Source: a virus
IMG/VR virus record: IMGVR_UViG_3300031951_000607
Location: 1 to 35,471 of that record
Length of the DNA: 35,471 bases
Reading direction: 5' to 3' (one strand)
A program made the position numbers and the translations under genes. Shown here piece after piece: positions 1 to 35,471 of the stretch; position 1 is the first letter of the stretch, and each line of letters begins with the position of its first letter. The notes below the pieces were generated by a model that was given only the letters and a program-made list of their open reading frames with translations, ran no database searches and was not told the origin of the DNA.

Positions 1-49
1 CGGAACACAAATCGCTTTCCCTCAGTTCTTCGTAACTAATGGTCTTTAA
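1..49 (+). CDS. Major capsid protein, C-terminal end only (partial)
   Basis: The window opens inside the last codons of a major capsid gene; the reading frame ends with a TAA at 47-49. These bases are identical to the end of the complete capsid gene at 31657-31705, so this is the same gene seen a second time rather than a different protein. Only about 15 residues are present, ending in the motif FFVTNGL. It is partial because the contig starts here. Confidence 0.85.
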   Translation, partial: GTQIAFPQFFVTNGL

Positions 50-56
50 TATTTAT

Positions 57-77
57 GGTCGGGGGGAAACCCCCACC
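57..77 (+). promoter_or_regulatory. GC-rich hairpin with GAAA loop between capsid and tail-tube genes
   Basis: GGT at 57-59 pairs with ACC at 75-77. Five G (61-65) pair with five C (70-74) around a GAAA tetraloop, with C60 bulged. No T-run follows, so it does not look like a simple terminator. It lies 8 bases after the capsid stop and 38 bases before the tail-tube start, and is identical in the second copy. A role in mRNA stability, processing or partial attenuation between two very highly expressed genes is an inference. Confidence 0.6.
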
Positions 78-115
78 ATTAATTTCAATAAACTAAAAAA
101 TTAAATCAATATAAA

Positions 116-646
116 ATGAGTTGTAATTTGAATAGTGGGATTGGTCTCGGATGTCGCGATGTAGTGGGCGGCGTGTCCACCGTATGGATTACTGACCAAG
201 ACAACTTAGCATCAATCACGAAAAATACAGGTGATACAATTACTCAAATTTCAGGCACAGGCTCGTATTACGAATTTCAATTAATTCGCACGAGTTCTCA
301 GTATACTGAAACTGTTAATGCGTCACTTGAAAATGGAACTGTATTTTATACACAAGAGTTAGTTACATTCTTCTCAAAACTTGAACAATCTAAGAGAAAT
401 ATCTTGAAGACCTTGGCTCAATCTCCAAAACTTTCAATAGTAATGGAAGATAACACAGGGAAATATTTCTTACTTGGTGAAGTATATGGAAGTTTCGTAT
501 CGGCAGGTAGTAGCGTCACGGGTAAAGGCCTGGGAGACGCTCAGGGGTATAATATAACTTTCCAAGCGTTGGAGCAGAATCCGATGTGTGAATTATCAGG
601 TCCAATCACTTCTGTGGTTGCTGGTATCACAGTTATTGCTGCTTAA
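116..646 (+). CDS. Probable major tail tube protein (copy 1)
   Basis: This is a 176-residue protein directly downstream of the major capsid gene. It is soluble, without membrane segments, and rich in beta-type sequence with Gly, Ser and Thr. The C-terminal part carries a GDAQGYNITFQALEQNP segment that resembles the end of the tail-tube fold in Bacteroidota phages. Length and position (after the capsid, followed by a terminator) suit a major tail protein, which would polymerise into the tail tube around the tape measure. A diverged copy lies at 31772-32302; the N-terminal 20 residues differ most and the C-terminal half is nearly identical. The tail-tube assignment comes from position and general resemblance, so another major virion protein remains possible. 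Confidence 0.6.
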   Translation: MSCNLNSGIGLGCRDVVGGVSTVWITDQDNLASITKNTGDTITQISGTGSYYEFQLIRTSSQYTETVNASLENGTVFYTQELVTFFSKLEQSKRNILKTLAQSPKLSIVMEDNTGKYFLLGEVYGSFVSAGSSVTGKGLGDAQGYNITFQALEQNPMCELSGPITSVVAGITVIAA

Positions 647-658
647 TAAAATAATATA

Positions 659-698
659 AATCACAGGGGGGTTAATATCCCCTTGTGATTATTTTTAT
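659..698 (+). terminator. Intrinsic terminator after the tail-tube gene
   Basis: AATCACAGGGG (659-669) pairs with CCCCTTGTGATT (679-690), with one bulged T, and is followed by ATTTTTAT. The second copy at 32315-32354 keeps the whole stem but has a different loop, which indicates selection on the structure. It would reduce read-through from the abundant tail-tube message into the adhesin gene. Confidence 0.75.
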
Positions 699-703
699 CT
701 GCT

Positions 704-3058
704 ATGATTCTTCTAAAAACAAATCAGTTAAATAAGATGGTTGTTACTGTGTCTCAAAACGCAGAACTCGCCAATCCTGAATGGTTATTTTCATTCACTC
801 ATATCTTCTCAAAAAGAAGGGTAACAATGATATTGTCTAATATCTCGACTCACAGAGTTAGATATGATGAATTTGAATTTATAGAAGGACCAAATCCTGG
901 TCAGATTCCATTCCCTTATGAGGGACAATACAATTATGGTATATGGGAACAACCAGCAGGTAGTGGTAATTTAGACCCTGCATTAGCGTATAACCTCGTT
1001 GAATCAGGTATAGCATTATTGATTGCTCAATCTGCTAATACCACAAATGAATACTATATGGAGTTCATATCACCTGATGAAGATGATTCCAATATTATAT
1101 TCGCTCCTGATGAATTAAATCCACCAACAGCGACACCAAGTCAAACTGCTTCACAGACCGCAACTCCAACTCAAACTCCAACAAATACTTCTACTCCAAC
1201 AACTACGCCTACACAAACTCCAACTTTAACAAACACGCCAACTAATACAAAAACACCTACTCCAACCCCTACTACAACAACAACTTTAACTGCGACTCAG
1301 ACACCAACTAAGACGCCAACACAGACGCCTACAAATACATCAACATCTACACCTACACCTTCAATTACTGCGTCACAAACTCAAACTCCAACTCTAACAA
1401 GAACTCCTACACAGACACCAACTACCACTACTACATTAACTGCAACGCCTACTCAAACTAAGACACCTACACAAACGCCTACACAAACACAAACTCCTAC
1501 TACGACAACTACATTGACTGCAACCCAAACACCTACTGTTACACAAACACCAACTCAAACTTTACCAACACCAACTCCTTCATCAACTTCAACCCCAACT
1601 CCTACAACGACAACAACTCTGACTGCGACACAAACACCGACAATAACTGCATCACCGACAATAACTGCGTCTGCAACACCAACTCCAACGGTGACTAAGA
1701 CACCTAACGCTGTTTGTCCAACAGAAATAACATTAAGTAATGTTTCAAGCACCTCCACAATAAATCCTGGTGTATATACAGGAGCGACAATTGCATCAGG
1801 TATTACATTTGATTATGCTTACTTAAATTACACAAACAATAGTTCGAAATTCCTTGTGTTAGGAACTGCTCCTGATGGTAACAACTACAAAGTATATCAA
1901 AATCATTTCGTTGGTGCACAAGCGTATTATACACTATTGAGAGCATTCTCAGGTTTAACAGATTTGGGATGGTCAGTATCAGAAAATGGATTTAATCAAA
2001 GTCCTTTATTCTCAGGTTCTTCAATGACTGGTGATACTGCATACGGAAACTTCACAACAAATATTATTGGTGGAGAGTATTTCCCTGGCACAGGTTCGGT
2101 TAATTTCTCAGGTGGAGTTGGAACAGCAACTGCATATATCGCATATCCTGCTGTTTGTCCTACACCTACACAAACTCCATCACAAACATCAACACCAACA
2201 ATTACATCATCACCAACTCCTACATCGACACAAGTTACACCAACACCAACGCCTACGCAGACATCAACTGCAACACCTAATCCAACACCATCTGTAACAT
2301 TAACACAGACACCGAGTCCTACACCGTTTAATCCTTCATCACTGAGTCCACAGATATGGGTTGACTTCTCTGATAGTTCAACAATGACTTTCAGAACAGG
2401 AACAAACTTCTTGGAAAGAATTACAAACAAAGGGGTGTATGGTGGTATGACTGCATTTACTCAAACAACTGCATCAAATCAACCTGAGGTTACTTCTTGG
2501 ACAGGTGGTTCAGGTGTTAGTATATCAGCAGTTACAAACTCTGATAACTGGTTACAAGGTATTGTTGCAACCACTGCGTCAACGAATTGGACAAGAATTT
2601 TCGTGATTAGTGAACCTAATAACGCTCAAACATTTAGATTTTCAAGAAACTCAGATAGTAGTTCTTATACCATATTCCCTGGTCAAACTTCTACAACTGT
2701 TAGAAATGCAACATTTAATAACACCTCAGGTCAGTTTTGGAGACAAGATTGTGTATTAACAAATAGACCTGCAACAGGTCAAACAATTGTAAGTTATGTA
2801 TCAACCAGTGCTGCAACCATTGTTTCTTATATGAGTATCAATAGTTCTGCAACTACAAATTCGGATGTCGGTGGCTCAGTTCAATCATCAGCACAGAATT
2901 TCCCTGGCGTATCAACTCTATTCTTAATAAATGAATCAGGGGCGGGTTCTTATGTTGGTCAAATCGCTGAAATATTATTAATAACAAGAGAATTGACTAC
3001 AACTGAGACCGATAATCTATTATCTTATCTAAAAACCAAGTGGGGATTAAAATACTAA
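704..3058 (+). CDS. Modular Thr/Pro-rich virion protein, adhesin-like (copy 1)
   Basis: This 784-residue protein has a clear modular order. Residues 1-138 form a folded N-terminal domain with the pattern NLDPALAYNLVESG, of a type I associate with uncultured marine and Bacteroidota phage virion proteins. Residues about 139-335 are a long linker of TPT, TQT and TNT repeats. Residues about 336-482 form a beta-type module containing the motif APDGN. Residues about 483-541 are a second TPT linker. Residues about 543-784 form a lectin-like domain of LamG or concanavalin type, beginning LSPQIWVDFSD. There is no signal peptide. The gene follows the tail tube and precedes the portal, so a virion decoration or receptor-binding role is likely. 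The middle module recurs in the protein at 23177-24571. A variant copy lies at 32360-34717. The exact position in the virion is unknown. Confidence 0.65.
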   Translation: MILLKTNQLNKMVVTVSQNAELANPEWLFSFTHIFSKRRVTMILSNISTHRVRYDEFEFIEGPNPGQIPFPYEGQYNYGIWEQPAGSGNLDPALAYNLVESGIALLIAQSANTTNEYYMEFISPDEDDSNIIFAPDELNPPTATPSQTASQTATPTQTPTNTSTPTTTPTQTPTLTNTPTNTKTPTPTPTTTTTLTATQTPTKTPTQTPTNTSTSTPTPSITASQTQTPTLTRTPTQTPTTTTTLTATPTQTKTPTQTPTQTQTPTTTTTLTATQTPTVTQTPTQTLPTPTPSSTSTPTPTTTTTLTATQTPTITASPTITASATPTPTVTKTPNAVCPTEITLSNVSSTSTINPGVYTGATIASGITFDYAYLNYTNNSSKFLVLGTAPDGNNYKVYQNHFVGAQAYYTLLRAFSGLTDLGWSVSENGFNQSPLFSGSSMTGDTAYGNFTTNIIGGEYFPGTGSVNFSGGVGTATAYIAYPAVCPTPTQTPSQTSTPTITSSPTPTSTQVTPTPTPTQTSTATPNPTPSVTLTQTPSPTPFNPSSLSPQIWVDFSDSSTMTFRTGTNFLERITNKGVYGGMTAFTQTTASNQPEVTSWTGGSGVSISAVTNSDNWLQGIVATTASTNWTRIFVISEPNNAQTFRFSRNSDSSSYTIFPGQTSTTVRNATFNNTSGQFWRQDCVLTNRPATGQTIVSYVSTSAATIVSYMSINSSATTNSDVGGSVQSSAQNFPGVSTLFLINESGAGSYVGQIAEILLITRELTTTETDNLLSYLKTKWGLKY

Positions 3059-3059
3059 T

Positions 3060-3326
3060 ATGAAAGGTTATTTATTATTTCAAGATTTCCAACCAGCAGA
3101 GGACCTAATAAACGAGATTAATACTTGTATGGGATTTCCTAACGGTCAAACTCTAACTTGGATGAATGGACCATACTCATTTTGTTCAGTAGGTCCAACA
3201 AGTGCTTATACTCAATTTGAAGGATATGCAGTTGTTGTAGACACAGAACAGATTAGTCAATGTCTAACACAGGAACAAATTGATAATATTATACAAAAGC
3301 CTGTCGATTGGTCATTTTGTGTCTAA
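3060..3326 (+). CDS. Small conserved protein between adhesin and portal (copy 1)
   Basis: This is an 88-residue soluble protein starting one base after the stop of the adhesin-like gene, so the two are probably translationally coupled. I do not recognise the family. It contains several aromatic residues and three Cys (motifs NTCMGFPNG, SQCLT and SFCV at the C-terminus), and has no membrane segment. The second copy at 34719-34985 is nearly identical in protein, differing at only a few positions. This shows purifying selection on a real gene. Its place suggests a small virion or assembly factor linked to the adhesin. Confidence 0.7.
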   Translation: MKGYLLFQDFQPAEDLINEINTCMGFPNGQTLTWMNGPYSFCSVGPTSAYTQFEGYAVVVDTEQISQCLTQEQIDNIIQKPVDWSFCV

Positions 3327-3333
3327 AAAAATA

Positions 3334-3340
3334 TATTTAT
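3334..3340 (+). promoter_or_regulatory. TATTTAT motif at the portal start
   Basis: TATTTAT lies at the portal start, within ATATATTTATGAATATGAAC, and the context is kept in the second copy at 34993-34999. It is one of a set of TA(T/C)TTATA-like motifs upstream of gene starts. If it is a promoter element, translation would begin at the second ATG (3345) rather than 3339. Confidence 0.35.
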
Positions 3341-4550
3341 GAATATGAACGAATCTGTAAATAAAGAAAATATCCTAAAAGTATTTGATTTTGCACCTGC
3401 AAGAGTTCCAATAATTGAGGAAAACTTAATCATTAATACAAGAACGCCTTGGGTATATTACGGTGTCGCTAATCTTGCACCTCAGGAACTTATTCGTTTA
3501 TACAACACATCCCCAACACATAGAGCAGCAGCAAATTCGAAGTGGTATGCCGTTCGTGGAGAATCAATCAAACTTGTATCAGGTGAAGATGATAGATTGG
3601 TAATGGTTAATTCTCTTGGTGATACAATGTATGATATATGGGAGAAATGTGTTCTCGACTTTATTTTATATGGGTCATTCGCAATTAATATTGTCTATCG
3701 TAAAGATAGAGATATGGGTTTTGAAATGTATTATATGGATTTTTCAAAACTAAGAGCCGAAAAATCAGATTATCACGATAGAATTAATAACTGGTATTAC
3801 TGCGCTGATTGGGCGTTTCCGAAAAAATTTATTCCAAGAAAACTTCCAGCGTTTAATCCAAATGCAGAAGAGCCAAGTCAGGTGTTTGTATACTCTACTC
3901 ACTCAGCAGGAAATAACTACTACGCAACACCTACATATTGGGGTGGAGCAACAGCCATATCAACTCAGGTTGAAATATTCAACTGGCATTATAACAACAT
4001 CGTTAATGGATTATCTCCATCATTATTTGTTGGTATCAACTCAGGTATACCTGACCCCGAGCAGAGAAATGAGATTTACGAAAATTTGGTGGCGAAATAC
4101 GGGGGCAGCAACACATCAGGGAAATTGTTTTTAACATTCAGTGATGGTAAGGACCAAGCACCAACAATTGAACCAATCCCTCACAATGGTTCTGATTCAA
4201 TGTGGACAGAACTTAATGATATGGTTCAACAAGCAATCTTAACATCACATCAAATTTCATCTCCTGAATTACTTGGTATTGTTACACCAGGTCAACTTGG
4301 AAATCCTGACCACTTAGAAGCACAGGACCACTTCCACAACCTTGTTGTAAAACCAATACAGACAGAGATTAAGAAGGTATTTGAGAAGTTGTTATTACTT
4401 AGAGATAAGAGACCAGCAGAGATTGAAATAGACCAATTTGAAATGGTTACCATCGCTGATAAAGCACCAATCAAGGTTGAAGAAATTGATGAGAAAAAAG
4501 ATGTCGCAGTTGATGAAAATAAAAATTTGAATGAAAATATAACCGAATGA
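3339..4550 (+). CDS. Portal protein (copy 1)
   Basis: This is a 403-residue protein. The sequence has the character of a phage portal: an alpha/beta body with LAPQELIRLYNTSPTHRAAA near residues 45-65. Further features are a DIWEKCVLDFILYGSFAIN segment typical of the portal wing, and a C-terminal section rich in Gln, His and acidic residues. The portal forms the dodecameric ring through which the terminase packages DNA. Neighbours fit: a connector follows with a 4-base overlap. The start may be 3339 or the in-frame ATG two codons downstream at 3345. A diverged partial copy runs from 34998 to the end of the window. It is short for a portal, many of which are 450-550 residues, but within the range of compact forms. 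Confidence 0.75.
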   Translation: MNMNESVNKENILKVFDFAPARVPIIEENLIINTRTPWVYYGVANLAPQELIRLYNTSPTHRAAANSKWYAVRGESIKLVSGEDDRLVMVNSLGDTMYDIWEKCVLDFILYGSFAINIVYRKDRDMGFEMYYMDFSKLRAEKSDYHDRINNWYYCADWAFPKKFIPRKLPAFNPNAEEPSQVFVYSTHSAGNNYYATPTYWGGATAISTQVEIFNWHYNNIVNGLSPSLFVGINSGIPDPEQRNEIYENLVAKYGGSNTSGKLFLTFSDGKDQAPTIEPIPHNGSDSMWTELNDMVQQAILTSHQISSPELLGIVTPGQLGNPDHLEAQDHFHNLVVKPIQTEIKKVFEKLLLLRDKRPAEIEIDQFEMVTIADKAPIKVEEIDEKKDVAVDENKNLNENITE

Positions 4551-22600: not shown

Positions 22601-23184
22601 TTTGTGTGAGTGGTGTTACAGGATATTTTGCACAAGAAACTCTGTGGGAACAGGTGGGACAATTCAGTTCGTGCACAGAGTGTTCTTGTGTAATCTGTGT
22701 CTCTTATTCGATGACCGCTAATACAACAGGTCTTGTATCTTGGTTGGATTGTGATGGAATTGTTTCAGATACATTCCTATTAGCAGGTCAGACATATACA
22801 ATCAATTGTCCTGGTGCAAGACCTGGCACTGTTTCAGGTGATGTTACACTTGATAAAGGACCAGTATGTTTTAATAGTTGTGTTACCCCAACTCCGACTC
22901 CGACAATACCAGTCACTCCGACACCTACTCCAACATCACCAACTCCTACTCCAACTGCAACACCTGATTCAACGCCTACACCAACACCATCAACAGGTCT
23001 TGTTCCTTGTTATAACTACATTAACAATTCTGACTTCGCTTGGTTTGGTGATTATGTTGATTGCTTGGGTAATGTTGTTCTCAATTGGTATTTACCACCT
23101 TATGAATCAATATGTGCTCAGGATGGAACACCACAAACTCAAAGTGGAGAAGATTTAGTCGCAATATTTACTTGTTATGGATAA
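19699..23184 (+). CDS. Large baseplate hub-like protein with C-terminal TPT modules
   Basis: This is an 1161-residue protein. Residues 1-120 carry FVQGEPKFLDLYKDEPVLLS and SAFSKGFSVPGS, an N-terminal domain I associate with baseplate proteins of Bacteroidota phages. Residues about 430-480 (YTQIDFLTSINKYFNLVVVP, then SLIVEPIIDYIG) resemble the gp27-like hub region. The C-terminal third has Cys-rich beta modules, a TPT linker at about 1062-1099, and a last module of about 60 residues. That module is of the kind also found at the front of the next two proteins. It would sit at the tail tip. Its stop overlaps the next gene by 8 bases. Hub assignment is by resemblance; the modular end is directly visible. 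Confidence 0.6.
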   Translation: MSLQIRAFVQGEPKFLDLYKDEPVLLSLSFAEVQDITKKNSAFSKGFSVPGSQRNNEVFNFFYDLNSVPVTFDPNNKFDAQLLWDGYEILQGHIRLNGVSISNDEIIYQVTFYNQVGDLAANIGDKYLRNLNLSGLSHPYQETVILESIIDPTLWNLTGATNYSYQNGKTFWGLYNIGYDYLSGTTLNTDVSPLIQFSPLVSGSTGPQFIPQFGNFDFSGTPVRDYYYKPTLQVKTLYEKICEEAGYEIQSDFFNTDYFKKFYIPLKFLDETIYARQSIPACFKYGPQDFNLTSVLNDVYTIPNSATTCNALGFPLTNTGFTIDEQFAGIYTFRFTWSMIGQCDYFSFNIPLVNLMIVDGSGGQNFYSTYWCDGERQTVSIEQTFNFTGTSSVGFVFKGEYAQISGFTAEIINAPRFIPTGSTINYAEEFPDNDYTQIDFLTSINKYFNLVVVPNPDKPRSLIVEPIIDYIGKGRTLDWTTKVDFNQIQSLYPTTSLINGTLDFEFKLDQDYANQDFNSRANRIFGTDKFKLNLQYKDEVTKFTYLFSSPIDITINNSYVPLITIESMSKLKSIDKDGQSQQTFVPFKILPKLIFRGPTIPNDSYGFVGGTGSTTGSSVCKSGITFNINATSPVYYNDCFGVQQVYYANNGSNTITNCGDPSTLRVPLVVFPPPTITITSSGTTCGTVIQDPVYQTYWMNDNELDRFPNLNRFTTYPFAYNNFSHYINFRGEDKTNITPAEFSFVSEDLYDIYYKPYVDDLINEENKIYSCKIYLYPQEIQQLRWNEKILINNTYFRINRITNYNMTEPSICDVELVKLTREYPGHRVLYYDLIPCATGGTELHSSSDLMYHLYAYAGNFVTLYDDNNLYLGCYNVSIGEYNSGYTYNHYYLNSAFTFNNVGVYADCGCSGRTPFDIVQEEPGEPRLFWYRGTECNGTTQYVFTSSGSSIDLSGGTFTLYNPSIFDEVCVSGVTGYFAQETLWEQVGQFSSCTECSCVICVSYSMTANTTGLVSWLDCDGIVSDTFLLAGQTYTINCPGARPGTVSGDVTLDKGPVCFNSCVTPTPTPTIPVTPTPTPTSPTPTPTATPDSTPTPTPSTGLVPCYNYINNSDFAWFGDYVDCLGNVVLNWYLPPYESICAQDGTPQTQSGEDLVAIFTCYG

Positions 23185-24571
23185 TTTTAGTTGCTCACGA
23201 TATAGTCACAATGAACCAAACTATGGTCCAAAAGTAATCTCAGGAACTACTTGTTCAGGAGTTACTGGCTCATTCACATTGGTGTATGGTCAATCAATCT
23301 GTATGTCCAATGCAGAACCACTTGATGCTTGTGATAATTTTGATATTGATGAGATATGTGGATTCCCAACACCTACTCCATCAGCAACTCCAATCATCAC
23401 ACCAACCCCAACTTTAACTTCCAGTCAGACACCAACATTGACTCCTACTCCAACAACCACAACAACTCTCACATCCACTCCTACTGAAACTCCAACTCAG
23501 ACACCAACTACAACAACTACTTTAACATCAACACCAACTGAAACAGTTACTCCAACACAAACCCCTACAACAACAACTACATTAACATCTACTCCATCAG
23601 AAACACCAACACATACTCCAACATCGAGTTCTACACCCCCACCTACCCCAACTCAAACGCCAACAGAAACACCAAATAGTGTATGTCCCGTATATTTTGA
23701 ATTAAATGACCCATCACCGAATCCACCTACAATACCAAACGCAACATATTTTAGGATGTTCGATGGTTCAGGTTTTACATTTAATATCGGTTATTTGGAT
23801 TTTATTTCTAATACACAGGGAATTGTGAAATACGGAATTGCACCCGATGGAAATTCATATCCCGTATTCTCAGCATTTACAAGTAGCGCAAATTATTTGT
23901 TTTCAAGAACATTTTTTACTACAACAGACCAAGGCTGGTCTGTAAAAGAAATGTTTGGTCCTTCACCATTCCCACTTGTATCAGGTGTAACACTTGTTGG
24001 TGATACCGCTTGGGGACAATATGATGTGATATCATTCGATGGTTTATTGTATCCACCAACAGGATTCATTAATTTCAATTCTGGTATTGGATTCGGAACA
24101 ACATACTTACAATACCCTGAACTATGTCCAACACCAACTCCAACACCGTCCGTTACTGCGAGTCAAACACAAACACCTACACCCTCTGTTACAATAACTC
24201 AAACACCTTCGATTACTCCAACTCTAACACAGACACCAACTTATACAACTACACCAACTGTTACTAAAACACAAACTCAAACTCCATCCATAACACCATC
24301 CAATACACCAACGCGTTCAACCGTGTATAATTATTATAGGGTTCGTTTGGTTGACCCATTAGTAGGTTCACCTTGTAAATGTGGTAGTGAGTGTTTACAA
24401 CAAATTAGAACCACTCAAACTTGGACTGATGATGGTTTATTTCATTGTATAACTTATAACGGTGTGAGTGGGTATAAAGCAAAATATTTTTCAACTACTA
24501 TTTCAGGTAATCATCCTGTGGCATTCAAAACAGGTAGTAGTGCAATATCTTGTAATGCAGTATCCTGCTAA
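23177..24571 (+). CDS. Modular TPT-linker virion protein, 464 residues
   Basis: Residues 1-63 form a Cys-containing module (VISGTTCSGVTGSF, SICMSNA) related to the N-terminus of the next protein. Residues about 64-167 are a TPT linker. Residues about 168-314 form a beta module with APDGNSY, DQGWSV and GDTAWG. It is homologous to the middle module of the protein at 704-3058 and its copy at 32360. Residues about 315-378 are a second linker. Residues 379-464 form a Cys-rich end domain. It overlaps the hub-like gene by 8 bases. It is likely a tail-tip fibre or adhesin; the shared module shows shuffling between distant genes. Confidence 0.65.
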   Translation: MDNFSCSRYSHNEPNYGPKVISGTTCSGVTGSFTLVYGQSICMSNAEPLDACDNFDIDEICGFPTPTPSATPIITPTPTLTSSQTPTLTPTPTTTTTLTSTPTETPTQTPTTTTTLTSTPTETVTPTQTPTTTTTLTSTPSETPTHTPTSSSTPPPTPTQTPTETPNSVCPVYFELNDPSPNPPTIPNATYFRMFDGSGFTFNIGYLDFISNTQGIVKYGIAPDGNSYPVFSAFTSSANYLFSRTFFTTTDQGWSVKEMFGPSPFPLVSGVTLVGDTAWGQYDVISFDGLLYPPTGFINFNSGIGFGTTYLQYPELCPTPTPTPSVTASQTQTPTPSVTITQTPSITPTLTQTPTYTTTPTVTKTQTQTPSITPSNTPTRSTVYNYYRVRLVDPLVGSPCKCGSECLQQIRTTQTWTDDGLFHCITYNGVSGYKAKYFSTTISGNHPVAFKTGSSAISCNAVSC

Positions 24572-24580
24572 AATAAAATT

Positions 24581-25375
24581 ATGAGTTGTATAACATATAT
24601 CAATAATGACCCAAATGGTGTTCCTGTAACAGTATCAGGAACAACTTGTGGTGGTGTTGTCGGAAATTATATGGTTAATTTCGGAGAGGCAATCTGTATG
24701 GATAATGATTTTCAAATCATCACTTGTGGTAATGCTGATATTGGTCCTGAGTGTTTACCACCAGTAACACCATCTAATACTCCATCCAACACACCTACAC
24801 CATCTGTAACCGCACAGGTAACATCTACGCCAACAAATACTCCTACGAATACTTTAACTCCAACCCCATCGGTAACAATTGGACTTACTCCAACAGCAAC
24901 TCCTGCTGAGACATCAACTCCAACACCGACATCTACAATTACATCAACTCCACAAGTGACTGTAACCCCAACAAAAACATCTACACCACAAGTAACATCT
25001 ACACCTACAACAACTCCTCAGGTAACATCAACACCTACATCTACAATACCTGCAACCCCAACAATCACATCATCACCAACACCTACTGAAAGTTGTCCTA
25101 ATACAATCTACACACACGGAGCAATATTGGGGACTTGTAGTGATTATTGTAATAACAACTATAATATCACAGTTCAAGATTGTTCAAGTCAACCTTATTC
25201 AACTCTAAGTATTGGTGATTTCATTTATGGGTATTCAGGTCAGAGTGGTTATCTCGCATATTCGAATGTATCAACAGACACATCAACAGGACCATTCTTG
25301 ATTGCTGATATAGATGGTTCAGGTGAAATACTTGGAATCTATGTTTGTTCAGGTGGAAGTTGTATACCTCAATAA
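24581..25375 (+). CDS. Modular TPT-linker virion protein, 264 residues
   Basis: Residues 1-61 are a module with VSGTTCGGVVGNY and EAICMD, paralogous to the front of the preceding protein. Residues about 62-170 are a TPT, STP and QVT-type linker. Residues about 171-264 form a small Cys-containing domain (ESCPNTIYTHG … CSGGSC). It lies nine bases after the previous stop and ends 17 bases before the start of a small gene ahead of the tape measure. It is probably a small tail appendage; there is no signal peptide or membrane helix. Confidence 0.65.
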   Translation: MSCITYINNDPNGVPVTVSGTTCGGVVGNYMVNFGEAICMDNDFQIITCGNADIGPECLPPVTPSNTPSNTPTPSVTAQVTSTPTNTPTNTLTPTPSVTIGLTPTATPAETSTPTPTSTITSTPQVTVTPTKTSTPQVTSTPTTTPQVTSTPTSTIPATPTITSSPTPTESCPNTIYTHGAILGTCSDYCNNNYNITVQDCSSQPYSTLSIGDFIYGYSGQSGYLAYSNVSTDTSTGPFLIADIDGSGEILGIYVCSGGSCIPQ

Positions 25376-27834: not shown

Positions 27835-29463
27835 ATGAATCCTACTCGTATTATTGAACTTTTTATTGATGATGAGTTCGAGGAAAGTGGTATTGAAGCA
27901 ATCTCACTTGTATCAAGACCTGCTCACGATGAGCAGTGGATTGCTTTTGGTCACGGTGAAGAAGTTGAAAGATTAGAACCGAACTACAAAATAGTGTCGG
28001 ATGACTTCTGTTCACACAACCCAAAATTAGACCAATTAGGAGAGCCTTATTCTCAATTGATAGAAGAAGGTTGGGAAGTAATTAAAGTCGAAAAAATCAC
28101 ACCTATGATGGTTCAGAAGATGAACCAAGAGAGGTTCTCAGAACCAAACGAACCATCATTCTTAGATAATGACCAATTTAGAGTTAGATTCAAGTATGTA
28201 GGTCCAAGAGATGAGAAGAACAGACAGTTCTGTTCTGATATGTTATCCAAGAATAGAGTTTATAGACAAGAAGATATTGATGAGTTAACTGATTCAGTTG
28301 CTAATGAAGAATTTGGTTTCTATAACATCTTTTTATGGAGAGGTTCATTTAACTGTCGCCACACTTGGGTTAGATTATTATACGCACCAACTGGTAAGAT
28401 TAGAAACTCAGGTTCATCAAGTAAGGGGTTAGAAGATACAAGTGCTCAGTCATCGAATCTTCAACCTGATACAAGAACAGAGGCGACAATTAATTCACCA
28501 AATCCATCAAAACAATGGAAGCCAGGTATGCCAAGAACAGGTCCAAATCTTTTTAAGAAAGATGAAATGGGACTTGAAGATGCTTGTTGGGAAGGATATG
28601 AACCAATCGGGACTAAGATTCTTGATGGTAGAGAAGTTCCAAACTGTGTTCCAATCAAATTGACTGAGGATGATTTCGTTGATTCAATTTCTGACTACCC
28701 TGAGGGTGTTAAGAACGCAGCAAAAAGTGCTGTTGCATATGCAGAGAAAAACGGATGGGGTTCTTGTGGAACTGGCGTAGGAAAACAAAGAGCATCTCAA
28801 CTCGCGAAAGGTGAAAACATCTCAGTTGATACATTAAAAAGAATGTATTCTTATTTATCAAGACACAAGACAGATTTAACCAAATCAAAATCATATGATG
28901 ATGGTTGTGGTAAGTTGATGTATGACGCTTGGGGTGGTGAAGCAGGATTAAAGTGGGCAGAAAGAAAGTTGGCTCAACTTGAAAAAGAGAGAATGACTTT
29001 CGCAGTAGCCGATGAAGACAAACAAATTCTTGTTGGAGCGGCGATGGTGCCAAACAAGATGATTCATAGATATGATGATTTGGGGAATATGTATTATGTG
29101 TATTTCTCAAAAGCATCCATCAGAAAAATGGCGGATAAGTTTCTTAAACAAAAAAGAACTGATGAAACTTCAATTGAACATAATGGAATTAAGTTAGGTT
29201 CTGATAAAGTTTATATCACAGAATCTTGGGTATCAGAAGACCCCATCAAAGACAAATCAAATATGTATGGTTTTGAACTACCATCGGGAACTTGGTTTGT
29301 TCAGATGCGAGTTGAAGACAAGAAGATATGGAAATTAGTTAAAGATAATATGTTAACAGGATTTTCTGTTGAAGGATTATTCGCTAATAAATCGGTTTTC
29401 TCAAAAGAAGACAAAAAAATAAACCAAATAAAGCAAATACTTAAATCAATAACAGATGAATAG
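27835..29463 (+). CDS. Prohead protease fused to a MuF-like region
   Basis: This is a 542-residue protein. Residues about 110-185 end in YNIFLWRGSFNCRHTWV, where the CRH motif is typical of the end of MuF-type minor head proteins. The middle holds EGYEPIGTKI then the GWGSCGTGVGKQRASQLAKG region. Residues about 396-520 resemble the XkdF-like serine protease: ILVGAAMVPNKMIHR, EHNG with His near 448, and ITESWVSED with Ser near 463. The protease trims scaffold and capsid proteins during maturation. Scaffold-like and capsid genes follow directly. The overlap with the next gene is 8 bases. Catalytic residues are inferred from position in the pattern. Confidence 0.7.
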   Translation: MNPTRIIELFIDDEFEESGIEAISLVSRPAHDEQWIAFGHGEEVERLEPNYKIVSDDFCSHNPKLDQLGEPYSQLIEEGWEVIKVEKITPMMVQKMNQERFSEPNEPSFLDNDQFRVRFKYVGPRDEKNRQFCSDMLSKNRVYRQEDIDELTDSVANEEFGFYNIFLWRGSFNCRHTWVRLLYAPTGKIRNSGSSSKGLEDTSAQSSNLQPDTRTEATINSPNPSKQWKPGMPRTGPNLFKKDEMGLEDACWEGYEPIGTKILDGREVPNCVPIKLTEDDFVDSISDYPEGVKNAAKSAVAYAEKNGWGSCGTGVGKQRASQLAKGENISVDTLKRMYSYLSRHKTDLTKSKSYDDGCGKLMYDAWGGEAGLKWAERKLAQLEKERMTFAVADEDKQILVGAAMVPNKMIHRYDDLGNMYYVYFSKASIRKMADKFLKQKRTDETSIEHNGIKLGSDKVYITESWVSEDPIKDKSNMYGFELPSGTWFVQMRVEDKKIWKLVKDNMLTGFSVEGLFANKSVFSKEDKKINQIKQILKSITDE

Positions 29464-30468: not shown

Positions 30469-31705
30469 ATGAAAAACAAATTATCAAAAATGTCGTTCAA
30501 TTACGATTTAGCAGGGCTAAGTTCGTATGTTGACCAACTTTCATCTGATATTATCTCAGAAGCAGTGTTAACTCCTGTTACAATGAAGTATGTTAATGTG
30601 ATTGACCACCAGTTGAGTCACCTTTGCCAGGAATGGTAATGTAAAATTGGGCAATATCGGTGGAAGGTGTGAATCCCAATACCGAGATAAGTCAAGATAT
30701 GTAAAAGGATTTTGACCATCGTAACGCATAGAGAGTGAAGAATATAATAATCTCTCCAAGAGTGTCCACAACGAGAACCGTTGAAAATATATGCTGAACT
30801 TTAAGGAATAAGAACTTAAAGAAGTTGAGGATAAAAAGCCACAACGATAACAAAACTGTCCTGGAATTAAAGGCACACAGAATGTAAACTTACTTTCTGA
30901 AACATTATCAGTTCAAACTGGAACTACTTGTGGATGGAATGATGCAGGTGATGTAACTTTCGAAGTTGCTCCTTTAACTGTTCAATCATTAAAGGTTAAC
31001 CAATCATTATGTCTTCAAGAATTGAACACACTATGGTTAGGTCAATATCTAAATCCAGGCTCATACAATGAGCAACCGCCGTTCGAACAGGCGATAGTGG
31101 ATTTGCAAACTAAACAGATAAAAAGGTATAACGAAGACCTGGTTTGGAATGCATCAAGTGGTTCATCTGCATTTTCAGGTTTCATTGAGTTGTTGAATAA
31201 CACTGCTGGTGTTGTAAAGTTAGACACACTTCCTGCATATTCAGCAAACACAGTTGCACTTTGTTCTGTAACAGGTGCTACTGTTCAAGAACAAGCAAAT
31301 AAAGTTTTAGCACAAATCGATAATATTATCAATGAATTAGATAGAAATATTTATGATAGAGATGATATCGTAATCTTTATGTCTCAAACTCAGTTCAAGT
31401 GTTACTTGACTGCAATCAGAAATGTAAACAACTTCCATTTCAGTGAACCAACTCTTGGTCAAGTATTTGAAACATTCCACCCTCAAACAAAGTATAAAGT
31501 TGTAGGAGTTCCTGGTCTTAATGGTTCAAACTTAATCGCTGCTGGTCCACAACAATACTTTATGGTTGGTGTTGATTTAATGAGTGATGAAGATTCATTC
31601 CGTTCTTGGTGGTCTATGGATTTCCAAGAAGTGAGAATCGCTGTGAACTGGAAAATCGGAACACAAATCGCTTTCCCTCAGTTCTTCGTAACTAATGGTC
31701 TTTAA
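30469..31705 (+). CDS. Major capsid protein, split by a group I-type intron
   Basis: Exon 1 (30469-30602, 44 codons plus two bases) and exon 2 (30859-31705) join to one frame of 326 residues. The junction reads YVNV-I-PGIKGTQNVN, with Ile made from AT of exon 1 and T of exon 2. Unspliced, the frame stops after 12 foreign residues at 30637-30639. The protein has the size and composition of an HK97-fold capsid protein. It has a helical arm, a central RNIYDRDDIVIFMSQTQF segment, and an aromatic C-terminal part (FRSWWSMDFQEVRIAVNW). The scaffold-like gene is upstream and the tail tube downstream. Expression of an intact capsid depends on removal of the insert. Confidence 0.8.
30603..30858 (+). 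ncRNA. Probable group I self-splicing intron in the capsid gene
   Basis: This is a 256-base insert without an ORF. The 5' site follows U30602, which pairs with G30617 in a P1 helix (GUGAU 30598-30602 with GUCAC 30617-30621). The last intron base is G30858, as the family requires. Proposed helices: P2 30624-30629/30634-30639 (GGAA loop); P4 30646-30651/30675-30680; P5 30654-30658/30666-30670; P6 30683-30685/30719-30721; P6a 30691-30698/30709-30716. P7 is 30726-30730/30790-30794 with bulged C30725 and a G-C pair beside it. P8 is 30769-30773/30779-30783. J8/7 is AAAAUA, close to the consensus AAGAUA. P9 is 30799-30805/30815-30821. P3 could not be placed. These pairings were found by eye. Confidence 0.8.
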
Positions 31706-31712
31706 TATTTAT

Positions 31713-31733
31713 GGTCGGGGGGAAACCCCCACC
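31713..31733 (+). promoter_or_regulatory. GC-rich hairpin with GAAA loop (second copy)
   Basis: Identical to the hairpin at 57-77; it lies after the capsid stop and before the second tail-tube copy. No T-run follows it. Confidence 0.6.
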
Positions 31734-31771
31734 ATTAATTTCAATAAACTAAAAAATTAAATCAATATAAA

Positions 31772-32302
31772 ATGAGTTGTAATGTAAGTGCGGGGATTGC
31801 GTTAGGCTGTCGAGACGTCGTGGGTGGTGTTCAAACCATCTGGATTACAGACCAAGACAATATCGCATCCATCACAAAAAATACAGGTGATACTATCACC
31901 CAAATTTCAGGCACAGGCTCGTATTACGAATTTCAACTGATTAGAACTTCTTCTCAATATACTGAGACAGTTAATGCATCACTTGAAAATGGAACTGTGT
32001 TTTACACACAAGAATTGGTTACATTTTTCTCTAAGTTAGAACAATCAAAAAGAAATATTTTGAAAACACTCGCTCAATCTCCAAAACTATCAATAGTGAT
32101 GGAAGATAATACGGGTAAATATTTCTTACTCGGAGAAGTGTATGGCTCTTTTGTGTCTGCTGGTTCATCAGTAACGGGTAAAGCGCTCGGAGACGCTCAG
32201 GGTTATAACATAACTTTCCAAGCGTTGGAGCAGAATCCGATGTGTGAGTTGAGCGGTCCTATTTCATCAGTTGTTGCTGGTATCACAGTAGTCGCTGCTT
32301 AA
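31772..32302 (+). CDS. Probable major tail tube protein (copy 2, variant)
   Basis: This 176-residue protein has the same length as copy 1. Residues 1-4 are identical, then changes cluster (VSAGIALG for LNSGIGLG, VQTIW for VSTVW). From about residue 38 the two proteins differ at only a few positions, while the DNA differs at many third codon positions. This is the mark of two lineages under protein-level constraint, and argues that both copies are or recently were functional. If the contig is a read-through into a strain variant, a single genome has only one of them. Confidence 0.6.
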   Translation: MSCNVSAGIALGCRDVVGGVQTIWITDQDNIASITKNTGDTITQISGTGSYYEFQLIRTSSQYTETVNASLENGTVFYTQELVTFFSKLEQSKRNILKTLAQSPKLSIVMEDNTGKYFLLGEVYGSFVSAGSSVTGKALGDAQGYNITFQALEQNPMCELSGPISSVVAGITVVAA

Positions 32303-32314
32303 TAAAATAATATA

Positions 32315-32354
32315 AATCACAGGGGGACTCATATCCCCTTGTGATTATTTTTAT
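32315..32354 (+). terminator. Intrinsic terminator after the tail-tube gene (second copy)
   Basis: Same stem as at 659-698 (AATCACAGGGG with CCCCTTGTGATT, then ATTTTTAT), but the loop reads GACTCATAT-like instead of GGTTAATAT-like. The stem is kept while the loop drifts. Confidence 0.75.
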
Positions 32355-32359
32355 CTGCT

Positions 32360-34717
32360 ATGATTCTTCTAAAAACAAATCAGTTAAATAAGATGGTAGT
32401 TACTGTGTCTCAAAACGCAGAACTCGCCAATCCTGAATGGTTATTTTCATTTACTCACATCTTCTCAAAAAGAAGGGTAACAATGATATTGCCTAACATA
32501 TCAACTCACAGAGTTAGATATGATGAATTTGAATTTATAGAAGGACCAAATCCTGGTCAGATACCATTCCCTTATGAAGGACAATACAATTATGGTATAT
32601 GGGAACAACCATCAGGTAGTGGAAATTTAGACCCTGCATTAGCGTATAACCTTGTTGAATCAGGTATCGCATTATTGATTGCTCAATCTGCTAATACAAC
32701 AAATGAATATTATATGGAGTTCATATCACCTGATGAAGATGATTCCAATATTATATTCGCTCCTGATGAATTAAATCCACCATCACCAACTCCAAGTGTA
32801 ACAGCATCTCAAACTGCTACACCAACAATGACGCCAACACAAACCAAAACTCCAACACAAACACCTACCCAAACTCCGACAAATACTAACACGCCAACTA
32901 ATACAAAAACTCCTACTCCAACTCCTACCACAACAACAACTCTGACTGCGACTCAGACCCCAACTAAGACGCCAACACAGACGCCTACAAACACAAGAAC
33001 ATCTACACCAACACCTTCAATTACTGCATCACAGACACAAACTCCTACCCAAACAAAAACTCCTACACAGACCCCAACAACTACAACCACATTAACTGCA
33101 ACGCCTACTCAAACTAAGACCCCTACACAAACTCCAACACCGACAACTACAACTACTCAAACCCCTACAACTACAACAACTCTCACTTCTACTCCAACAC
33201 AGACGGCAACAGTTACTAATACACCAACAACTACAACTACATTAACTGCAACACCTACACAGACACCGACAGTTACACAAACGCCAACGCAAACATTACC
33301 TACACCAACGGTAACCGCAACATCAACTCTTACACCAACTAAGACACCTACACAGACACCAAATCCAATTTGTCCAACACAATTGGTTATTAGCAATGCT
33401 GTATCAACCGCGACAATCAATAATGGTGTTTACACAGGTGTTACAAGTTCATCAGGTGTAACATTTAGTTCTGTTTATTTGGACTATACAAACAATACGA
33501 ACAAATTTGTTTCTGTTGGGGTTGCTCCTGATGGAAATAGTTATTTGGCTTATGAGTTCTATAATTCATCAAATAACGCATTCTATTCCTTAATGAGAGC
33601 ATTCTCAGGAGTTACAGATTTGGGATGGTCAGTTACAGAACAAGGTTTCGGTCAGAGTCCATTCTATTCAGGCGTAACTCTAACAGGAGATACTGCTTAT
33701 GGTAATTATGGTTATATTACATCAGGTGGTCTATCTTATCCATCTACTGGTTCTGTTAACTTCTCAGGTGGGGTTGGAACAACAACTTGTTATATCGCAT
33801 ATCCTGTGGCTTGTCCAACACCTACACCTACACCAAGTATTACGGCATCACAAACACCAACACCTTCAATAACATCATCTCCGACTCTTACCCCGAGTGT
33901 TACACCAACTTCAACAACTATAACTCCAACCCCTACAAATACATTAACACAAACACCAACAGTAACACCATCAACAACACCATTTAATCCTGCGTCATTA
34001 AGTCCTCAAATATGGGTTGACTTCTCTGATACATCAACAATGACTTTCAGAACAGGAACGAATAACTTGGAGAAGATAACAAACAAAGGTGTGTATGGTG
34101 GATTGACCGCATTCACACAGTCAACCGCGTCCGTTCAACCTGTGGTGAGTGCGTCAACACAATTCACAGGGGTTACAATCTCTGCTGTTACATTGAGTAA
34201 TGATTATTTACAATCTAATATTTCAACTACCGCATCAACCAATTGGACCAAAGTATTTGTTATGGGTAATGTTGTTAATAACGGAATATTCAGGTTTGAA
34301 TGGGGTTCACCAACTAACTCATTTGCTGACTATCTTGCTCCTTCATCTACTTCATTCAGAAAAGCAACTTACAATGGAACAACTGCTCAGTATTGGAGAA
34401 GGGATTGTAGTTTGACTAATAGACCTTCCACAGGACAAACTATTGTTGATTACACTTCATTTTCTTCTTCAACACCTGTATCTTATTCATACATTAATGG
34501 TAGTGCGACAACTGAATCGAATGTTGCAGGTTCAAACAATGGTTCAACACAAAACTTCCCTGGTGCATCAACATTGTATATCTTAAATGACCCTGGTGAT
34601 GGAAATACTTATAATGGAGAATGTGGTGAACTCTTTATGTTCACAAGGGAACTAACATCAACCGAAAGAAGTAATTTGGAAAATTATCTAAAAAATAAAT
34701 GGGGACTACAATACTAA
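32360..34717 (+). CDS. Modular Thr/Pro-rich virion protein, adhesin-like (copy 2, variant)
   Basis: This 785-residue variant of the protein at 704-3058 has the same order: N-terminal domain, long TPT linker, APDGN module, short linker, lectin-like C-terminal domain (LSPQIWVDFSD). The N-terminal domain is nearly identical between copies. The linker differs in both repeat order and wording, and the two folded modules are clearly diverged (for example SYLAYEFYNSSNNAFYSLMR against NYKVYQNHFVGAQAYYTLLR). So variation concentrates in the outer part of the protein, as expected for a receptor-binding or surface-exposed module. Confidence 0.65.
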   Translation: MILLKTNQLNKMVVTVSQNAELANPEWLFSFTHIFSKRRVTMILPNISTHRVRYDEFEFIEGPNPGQIPFPYEGQYNYGIWEQPSGSGNLDPALAYNLVESGIALLIAQSANTTNEYYMEFISPDEDDSNIIFAPDELNPPSPTPSVTASQTATPTMTPTQTKTPTQTPTQTPTNTNTPTNTKTPTPTPTTTTTLTATQTPTKTPTQTPTNTRTSTPTPSITASQTQTPTQTKTPTQTPTTTTTLTATPTQTKTPTQTPTPTTTTTQTPTTTTTLTSTPTQTATVTNTPTTTTTLTATPTQTPTVTQTPTQTLPTPTVTATSTLTPTKTPTQTPNPICPTQLVISNAVSTATINNGVYTGVTSSSGVTFSSVYLDYTNNTNKFVSVGVAPDGNSYLAYEFYNSSNNAFYSLMRAFSGVTDLGWSVTEQGFGQSPFYSGVTLTGDTAYGNYGYITSGGLSYPSTGSVNFSGGVGTTTCYIAYPVACPTPTPTPSITASQTPTPSITSSPTLTPSVTPTSTTITPTPTNTLTQTPTVTPSTTPFNPASLSPQIWVDFSDTSTMTFRTGTNNLEKITNKGVYGGLTAFTQSTASVQPVVSASTQFTGVTISAVTLSNDYLQSNISTTASTNWTKVFVMGNVVNNGIFRFEWGSPTNSFADYLAPSSTSFRKATYNGTTAQYWRRDCSLTNRPSTGQTIVDYTSFSSSTPVSYSYINGSATTESNVAGSNNGSTQNFPGASTLYILNDPGDGNTYNGECGELFMFTRELTSTERSNLENYLKNKWGLQY

Positions 34718-34718
34718 T

Positions 34719-34985
34719 ATGAAAGGTTATTTATTATTTCAGGATTTCCAACCAGCGGAACAACTAATCAATGAGATTAATACTTGTATGGGATTTCCCA
34801 ATGGTGAAACTCTAACTTGGATGAATGGACCATACTCATTTTGTTCAGTAGGTCCAACGAGTGGATATACTCAATTTGAAGCCTATGCAGTTGTTGTGGA
34901 TACAGAACAAATCAGTCAATGTCTAACACAGGAACAAATCGATAATATTATACAAAAACCTGTTGATTGGTCATTTTGTGTCTAA
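34719..34985 (+). CDS. Small conserved protein between adhesin and portal (copy 2)
   Basis: This 88-residue protein is nearly identical to that at 3060-3326. Among the few changes are QLINE for DLINE, GETLTW for GQTLTW and FEAYAV for FEGYAV. It starts one base after the adhesin stop, as in copy 1. Strong conservation next to a variable adhesin suggests a fixed structural or assembly role. The family is not recognised. Confidence 0.7.
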   Translation: MKGYLLFQDFQPAEQLINEINTCMGFPNGETLTWMNGPYSFCSVGPTSGYTQFEAYAVVVDTEQISQCLTQEQIDNIIQKPVDWSFCV

Positions 34986-34997
34986 AAAAATATATTT

Positions 34998-35471
34998 ATG
35001 AATATGAACGAATCTGTAAATAGAGATAATATCCTTAAAGTTTTTGACTTTGCTGCGGCAAAAGTTCCTTTAATCGAGGAAAATTTAATCATCAACACAA
35101 GAACGCCGTGGACATATTATGGTATCGCCAACCTCGCTCCACAGGAACTCATTCGTTTATACAACACATCTCCAACCCACCGAGCAGCCGCAAATTCAAA
35201 GTGGTATGCCGTTCGTGGAGAATCAATCAAACTTGTTTCAGGTGAAGATGATAGATTGGTAATGGTTAATACTCTTGGTGATACAATGTATGATATATGG
35301 GACAAATGTGTTTTAGATTTCATCTTATACGGAGCCTTCGCAATTAATATTGTTTGGAGAAAAGATAGAGATATGGGTTTTGAAATGTATTATATGGATA
35401 CATCAAAACTAAGAGCCGAAAAATCAGATTATCACGACAGAATAAACAATTGGTATTATAGTGCTGATTGG
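34998..35471 (+). CDS. Portal protein (copy 2, truncated by the window end)
   Basis: The first 158 codons of a portal variant are present and the frame is still open at the last base. Differences to copy 1 are conservative (AAAKVPLIEEN for APARVPIIEEN, GIANLAPQ for GVANLAPQ, VWRKDRDMG for VYRKDRDMG). It carries the same TATTTAT motif and tandem ATGs at its start. Truncation is due to the window end, not a mutation. Confidence 0.75.
   Translation, partial: MNMNESVNRDNILKVFDFAAAKVPLIEENLIINTRTPWTYYGIANLAPQELIRLYNTSPTHRAAANSKWYAVRGESIKLVSGEDDRLVMVNTLGDTMYDIWDKCVLDFILYGAFAINIVWRKDRDMGFEMYYMDTSKLRAEKSDYHDRINNWYYSADW

Follow-up and report, generated by a model that had tools for sequence, protein, structure and literature searches.

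The capsid gene and its genomic context

The window analyzed here comprises positions 1 to 35,471 of the IMG/VR virus record IMGVR_UViG_3300031951_000607. On its plus strand, the reading frame that opens at ATG 30469 terminates at a TAA codon at positions 30637 to 30639, and excision of 30603 to 30858 (256 nt) yields a protein of 326 amino acids (MKNK...VNVI-PGIKGTQ...NGL) that reads I-PGIKGTQ across the junction. Both the stop and the restoration of the frame had been seen in a preliminary description of this DNA and were borne out. The locus consists of exon 1 (30469 to 30602), which covers codons 1 to 45, including the first two bases of codon 45, and is delimited by the frame and by the uninterrupted genes of two relatives (L003 and L004); an insert devoid of ORFs (30603 to 30858) with G30858 as its last base; and exon 2 with the stop codon (30859 to 31705), delimited by the restored frame and by relatives. 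Codon 45 is split by the insert and completed across the exon junction.

The protein matched nothing in Pfam and only a family of unknown function in PHROG, and neither a profile search of PDB sequences nor searches of named phages and bacterial genomes retrieved a relative. It is a candidate HK97-fold major capsid protein. The predicted structure is weak (pLDDT 43); the top matches of its better part are almost all phage capsids, including T4 gp23 (Z score of 6.5) and a BFVD major capsid protein (1e-4). Upstream of the gene lie an XkdF-type protease and a second gene. Positions 27835 to 29463 encode a single 542-amino-acid protein with a portal family at residues 77 to 192 and a phage protease at residues 388 to 515. 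The phage is tailed and has relatives among the phages of Flavobacteriia; a Bacteroidota host appears likely from sequence matches, because the portal protein has its only matches in Nonlabens phages and the best of the terminase matches listed are to Flavobacterium and Bacteroides phages.

The ends of the window (1 to 3812 and 31657 to 35471) are homologous, with 88 to 89% identity over 1 to 1484 and 3025 to 3812. The contig seems to circle a genome of ca. 31.7 kb once and then to run into a second strain, and its two ends are therefore not to be read as a single genome. Three proteins of 464, 264, and 785 amino acids, encoded at 23177 to 25375 and 32360 to 34717, weakly match PHROG 15511 (function unknown), perhaps through a repeated domain.

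Empty and occupied sites in related capsid genes

A protein search of IMG/VR with the capsid recovered 70 relatives, and in nine of them this gene is split by an intron (L002, L015, L018, L046, L062, L063, L066, L067, and L068). The comparison with intron-free homologues, suggested in the preliminary description, showed the junction to be exact: L003 and L004, whose protein is 97.5% identical, encode VNVIPGIKGTQNVNLL with no insert at exactly the junction of the window. The gene is also uninterrupted in 126 fetched entries, some of them duplicates of one contig.

Numbering by the codons of the window protein, ORF-less introns of about 245 to 270 nt were located at six sites. Codon 45 is occupied, at the identical position, in the window and in eight further contigs from separate samples (L002, L018, L066, L067, L076, L168, L269, and L270), among which L002 is identical to the window in the capsid and intron region and may be the same phage. 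The other sites are codon 47 (L015 and L119), about codon 105 (L095, L108, and L168), codon 120 (L066 and L067), about codon 230 (L104, L122, and L149), and about codon 300 (L046, L062, L063, L068, and L269), with two capsid introns each in L066, L067, L168, and L269. A further group I intron lies just 3' of the capsid gene in L066 (6211 to 6429) and L067 (3848 to 4066); its core is 84.5% identical to that of the codon 300 capsid intron of L046.

A covarying group I core

The insert can be drawn as a group I intron element by element. P1 pairs the exon end GUGAU (30598 to 30602) with the guide GUCAC (30617 to 30621), placing a U-G pair at the splice site. This pair and the terminal G are found at sites 45, 120, 230, and 300, the final G also at all capsid-gene intron sites, and at codon 230 the helix is maintained through a double change (GUGCU/GGCAC); P1 is longer at codons 120 and 300, and at sites 47 and 105 it is weak or hard to make out. 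The P2 hairpin (UUGCCA-GGAA-UGGUAA, 30624 to 30639) contains the in-frame stop codon, and in L066, L168, and L149 its GGAA loop is retained while the stem is changed. The core comprises P4 (UCGGU 30657 to 30661/ACCGA 30681 to 30685; 99.4% paired), which encloses P5; P6 (GAU 30686 to 30688/AUC 30718 to 30720) with P6a (30691 to 30697/30710 to 30716), 98.0% paired; the guanosine-binding helix P7 (GCAUA 30726 to 30730/UAUGC 30790 to 30794); P7.1 (GAGAG 30731 to 30735/CUCUC 30752 to 30756; 98.7% paired, with double changes in all five pairs); P8 (CAAC 30769 to 30772/GUUG 30780 to 30783), which covaries in the family; J8/7 (AAAAUA, 30784 to 30789); and P9 (30799 to 30805/30815 to 30821) and P9.1 (30824 to 30830/30839 to 30845), 93.5% and 97.7% paired, respectively. 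P1 with its U-G pair, the final G, P4 to P6, P7, and J8/7 are all as first described; P3, which could not be placed then, lies at UGGGCA 30648 to 30653/UGUCCA 30763 to 30768 (97.2% paired, double changes in six of seven pairs), which completes the group I core. Having P7.1, the intron probably belongs to subgroup IA. No convincing P10 pairing could be drawn for it, and folding of the single sequence produced a global structure that does not resemble such a core (z score of -2.0).

The comparative evidence was decisive. We scored an alignment of 31 related introns at 56 pairs drawn by hand (P3, P4, P5, P6, P7, P7.1, P7.2, P8, P9, and P9.1). Standard pairs occupied 95.4% of the cells at these pairs, versus 69.9 ± 0.7% after shuffling and 33 to 43% with slid partners, the covariation score was 0.636 versus 0.169, and 42 pairs changed on both sides, among them 9 of the 10 in P6 and P6a; P7.2 was present only in part. 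Some of these introns had been picked via their P8-J8/7-P7 motif, which explains why P7 is constant in this alignment and leaves P3, P6, P7.1, P8, P9, and P9.1 free to vary. A covariance model built from the family of the window intron (R1) collected 89 hits, 88 of them distinct; in the alignment fitted to it, 49 of 50 pairs showed double changes. P7 is not a pair of R1 and yet occurs among its hits in three compensatory types, GCAUA/UAUGC (69), GCGUA/UACGC (7), and GACUA/UAGUC (7), indicating that the catalytic helix itself covaries. Within the window, R1 recognizes a single intron (30642 to 30854, 198.5 bits).

Taken with the restored frame and the empty site, the covariation and the R1 match argue that 30603 to 30858 is very probably (about 0.96) a self-splicing group I intron, devoid of ORFs, that interrupts the putative major capsid gene of this tailed phage, with sequence, structure, and family observed directly and splicing itself predicted from homology with group I introns. 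By that homology, U30602 would be held in P1 through the U-G pair, a guanosine docked in P7 would attack after it, and the freed exon would then attack after G30858, joining the exons and completing codon 45.

The preliminary description had suggested that splicing might serve as a checkpoint on late capsid expression, the intron being retained for regulation. An unspliced message would indeed read only 56 codons before the stop at 30637 and yield a 56-amino-acid fragment, but relatives with a 97.5% identical protein lack the intron altogether, and others have introns at different codons or none, so this idea found no support and we regard it as very unlikely. Translational bypass, in which ribosomes would hop over the 256 nt of a message left unspliced, after the manner of T4 gene 60, would likewise restore the frame and give the same protein. 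The hops known so far span far less, about 50 nt, and have matched take-off and landing codons, whereas conservation here falls on a group I core in which P3 and P7 covary, and related elements sit in many unrelated genes; bypass is therefore highly improbable. No more credible is a misassembly, or an insertion in a capsid gene that is no longer functional: the window is known only as a metagenome contig whose overlapping ends seem to come from two strains, but the insert contains a conserved core and recurs at the identical site in eight other contigs, each from a separate sample, and the spliced exons are under purifying selection (dN of 0.14 to 0.24 versus dS of 1.4 to 2.4 in intron-bearing pairs). 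Splicing elements of another type, such as a group II intron, have in their favor only that the insert is an intervening sequence and can practically be dismissed, since group I accounts for the P3/P7 pseudoknot, P4 to P6, P8, and P9, the 5' end reads UGACC and not GUGYG, and no other Rfam family fits the element.

A branch missed by the standard Rfam model

The preliminary description had proposed a search with the Rfam group I model (RF00028) and had counted the lack of a covariance-model hit against an intron. RF00028 returned nothing for the intron at the gathering score and nothing at an E value of ≤10. A match to this model is, however, a detection test and not a defining trait of group I introns, and the model, whose coverage of phage introns has already been reported as incomplete (PMC11878797), fails to see this branch. 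Introns that RF00028 does recognize at other codons of the capsid gene are detected by R1 as well (L046, L062, L066, and L068; 1e-14 to 1e-29), while RF00028 misses introns in phage ROSA, at two sites of phage 6ec, and in L015, L095, and L168, where R1 scores about 1e-33 or better. Among classical introns, more distant in sequence and located in other host genes, R1 matches RF00028-positive places in Twort (9e-15 and 4e-8) and T4 (7e-8), which we take to be the orf142 introns and nrdD, respectively.

Unannotated introns of the same branch appeared in the Staphylococcus phages ROSA, 6ec, and BE02, the crAss-like phage cr7_1, and the Arcanobacterium phage TPWB06 (R1, 1e-33 to 5e-47). Unlike the window intron, they are located within or next to other genes (terminase, tape measure, or tail region), and some adjoin endonuclease genes. 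The one in cr7_1 (L195, 2420 to 2624) falls between the end annotated for terminase and that annotated for portal, which probably makes terminase a split gene. A core-motif DNA pattern derived from J8/7 and the 3' strand of P7 (GAAAATNTATGCTGAACT), run against IMG/VR, matched at least 119 stretches; most of the matches inspected share the remaining group I core, and a few are coding DNA that fits the pattern by chance. Five contigs (L101, L128, L133, L155, and L184) have at least three R1 hits each and represent intron-rich phages.

Group I introns in capsid genes are known from the lactococcal phage Tuc2009 and the mycobacteriophage LittleE, the splicing of the latter having been demonstrated by RT-PCR and protein sequencing (PMC3706429). 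The LittleE intron likewise interrupts the major capsid gene after an exon ending in U and ends in G (R1, 7.6e-7), but at 819 bp it encodes an HNH endonuclease, whereas the window intron has 256 nt and no ORF. The annotated intron in the major head protein gene of Tuc2009 also carries an HNH endonuclease, and its R1 match is weak and short (5e-4). In crAss-like phages of the Delta and Zeta groups, major capsid genes are interrupted by group I introns, sometimes by several in one gene (PMC7886860); these are capsid genes of Bacteroidota phages, although their introns were found via endonuclease domains, which those of the window gene lack. The initial view that a group I intron in a capsid gene of a Bacteroidota phage, this short and lacking a homing endonuclease, is unusual does not hold for the kind as such, which is already published. 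To this known kind the window adds a new member, along with the Rfam-invisible branch and the set of ORF-less introns at multiple sites within one gene.

Probable movement between phages and sites

The cores of the introns at sites 45 and 230 are 88 to 96% identical and form one clade (98/99), while the capsid exons of the phages that carry them are about 70 to 75% identical, with saturated synonymous sites (dS of 1.5 to 2.2). In some pairs the intron is 91 to 92% identical and the exons only 68 to 72%. Selection on the ribozyme could account for part of this similarity; it is not due to constraint alone, because introns of the same branch elsewhere are mostly <80% identical to those at these two sites. 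The guide also fits each site, GUCAC with exon GUGAU at codon 45 and GGCAC with exon GUGCU at codon 230. Since the introns are far less diverged than their exons and P1 suits each site, we infer with good support from these sequences that the introns have moved horizontally and from site to site with no endonuclease of their own. With close relatives lacking it and the insertion site varying, the window intron looks like a mobile, self-removing passenger.

Monophyly of the site 45 introns apart from those of site 230 was not rejected (P = 0.43), and the tree does not set a direction, while monophyly of site 300 apart from site 120 was rejected (2e-5) in an alignment that is fitted to R1 and has long branches. 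Flank identity climbs within 30 nt of the site 45 insertion; this rise could be co-conversion or only conserved codons and thus leaves the mechanism undecided. A Pfam scan of the window ORFs, all but a few short ones, detected no homing-endonuclease domain.

Both homing aided by a free-standing endonuclease and reverse splicing of ORF-less introns into new sites have been described for group I introns (PMC3984707), and an endonuclease acting in trans and reverse splicing are the candidate routes here. Spread at the RNA level among capsid sites, by reverse splicing into short P1-like targets and not by endonuclease-driven DNA homing, is a tentative suggestion that we consider possible but rather unlikely. 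The targets would be GUGAU at codon 45 and GUGCU at codon 230, with the guide shifting from GUCAC to GGCAC or back.

The branch is widely spread, with the at least 119 IMG/VR stretches above and members in Staphylococcus, Clostridioides, and crAss-like phages, and as the standard Rfam model does not detect it, split or truncated genes may have been annotated in many phages where an intron is present. The capsid gene itself provides a natural series, from an empty site through one intron and two introns to nearly identical introns at two different sites, which allows a direct test of how introns move when they have no endonuclease gene.
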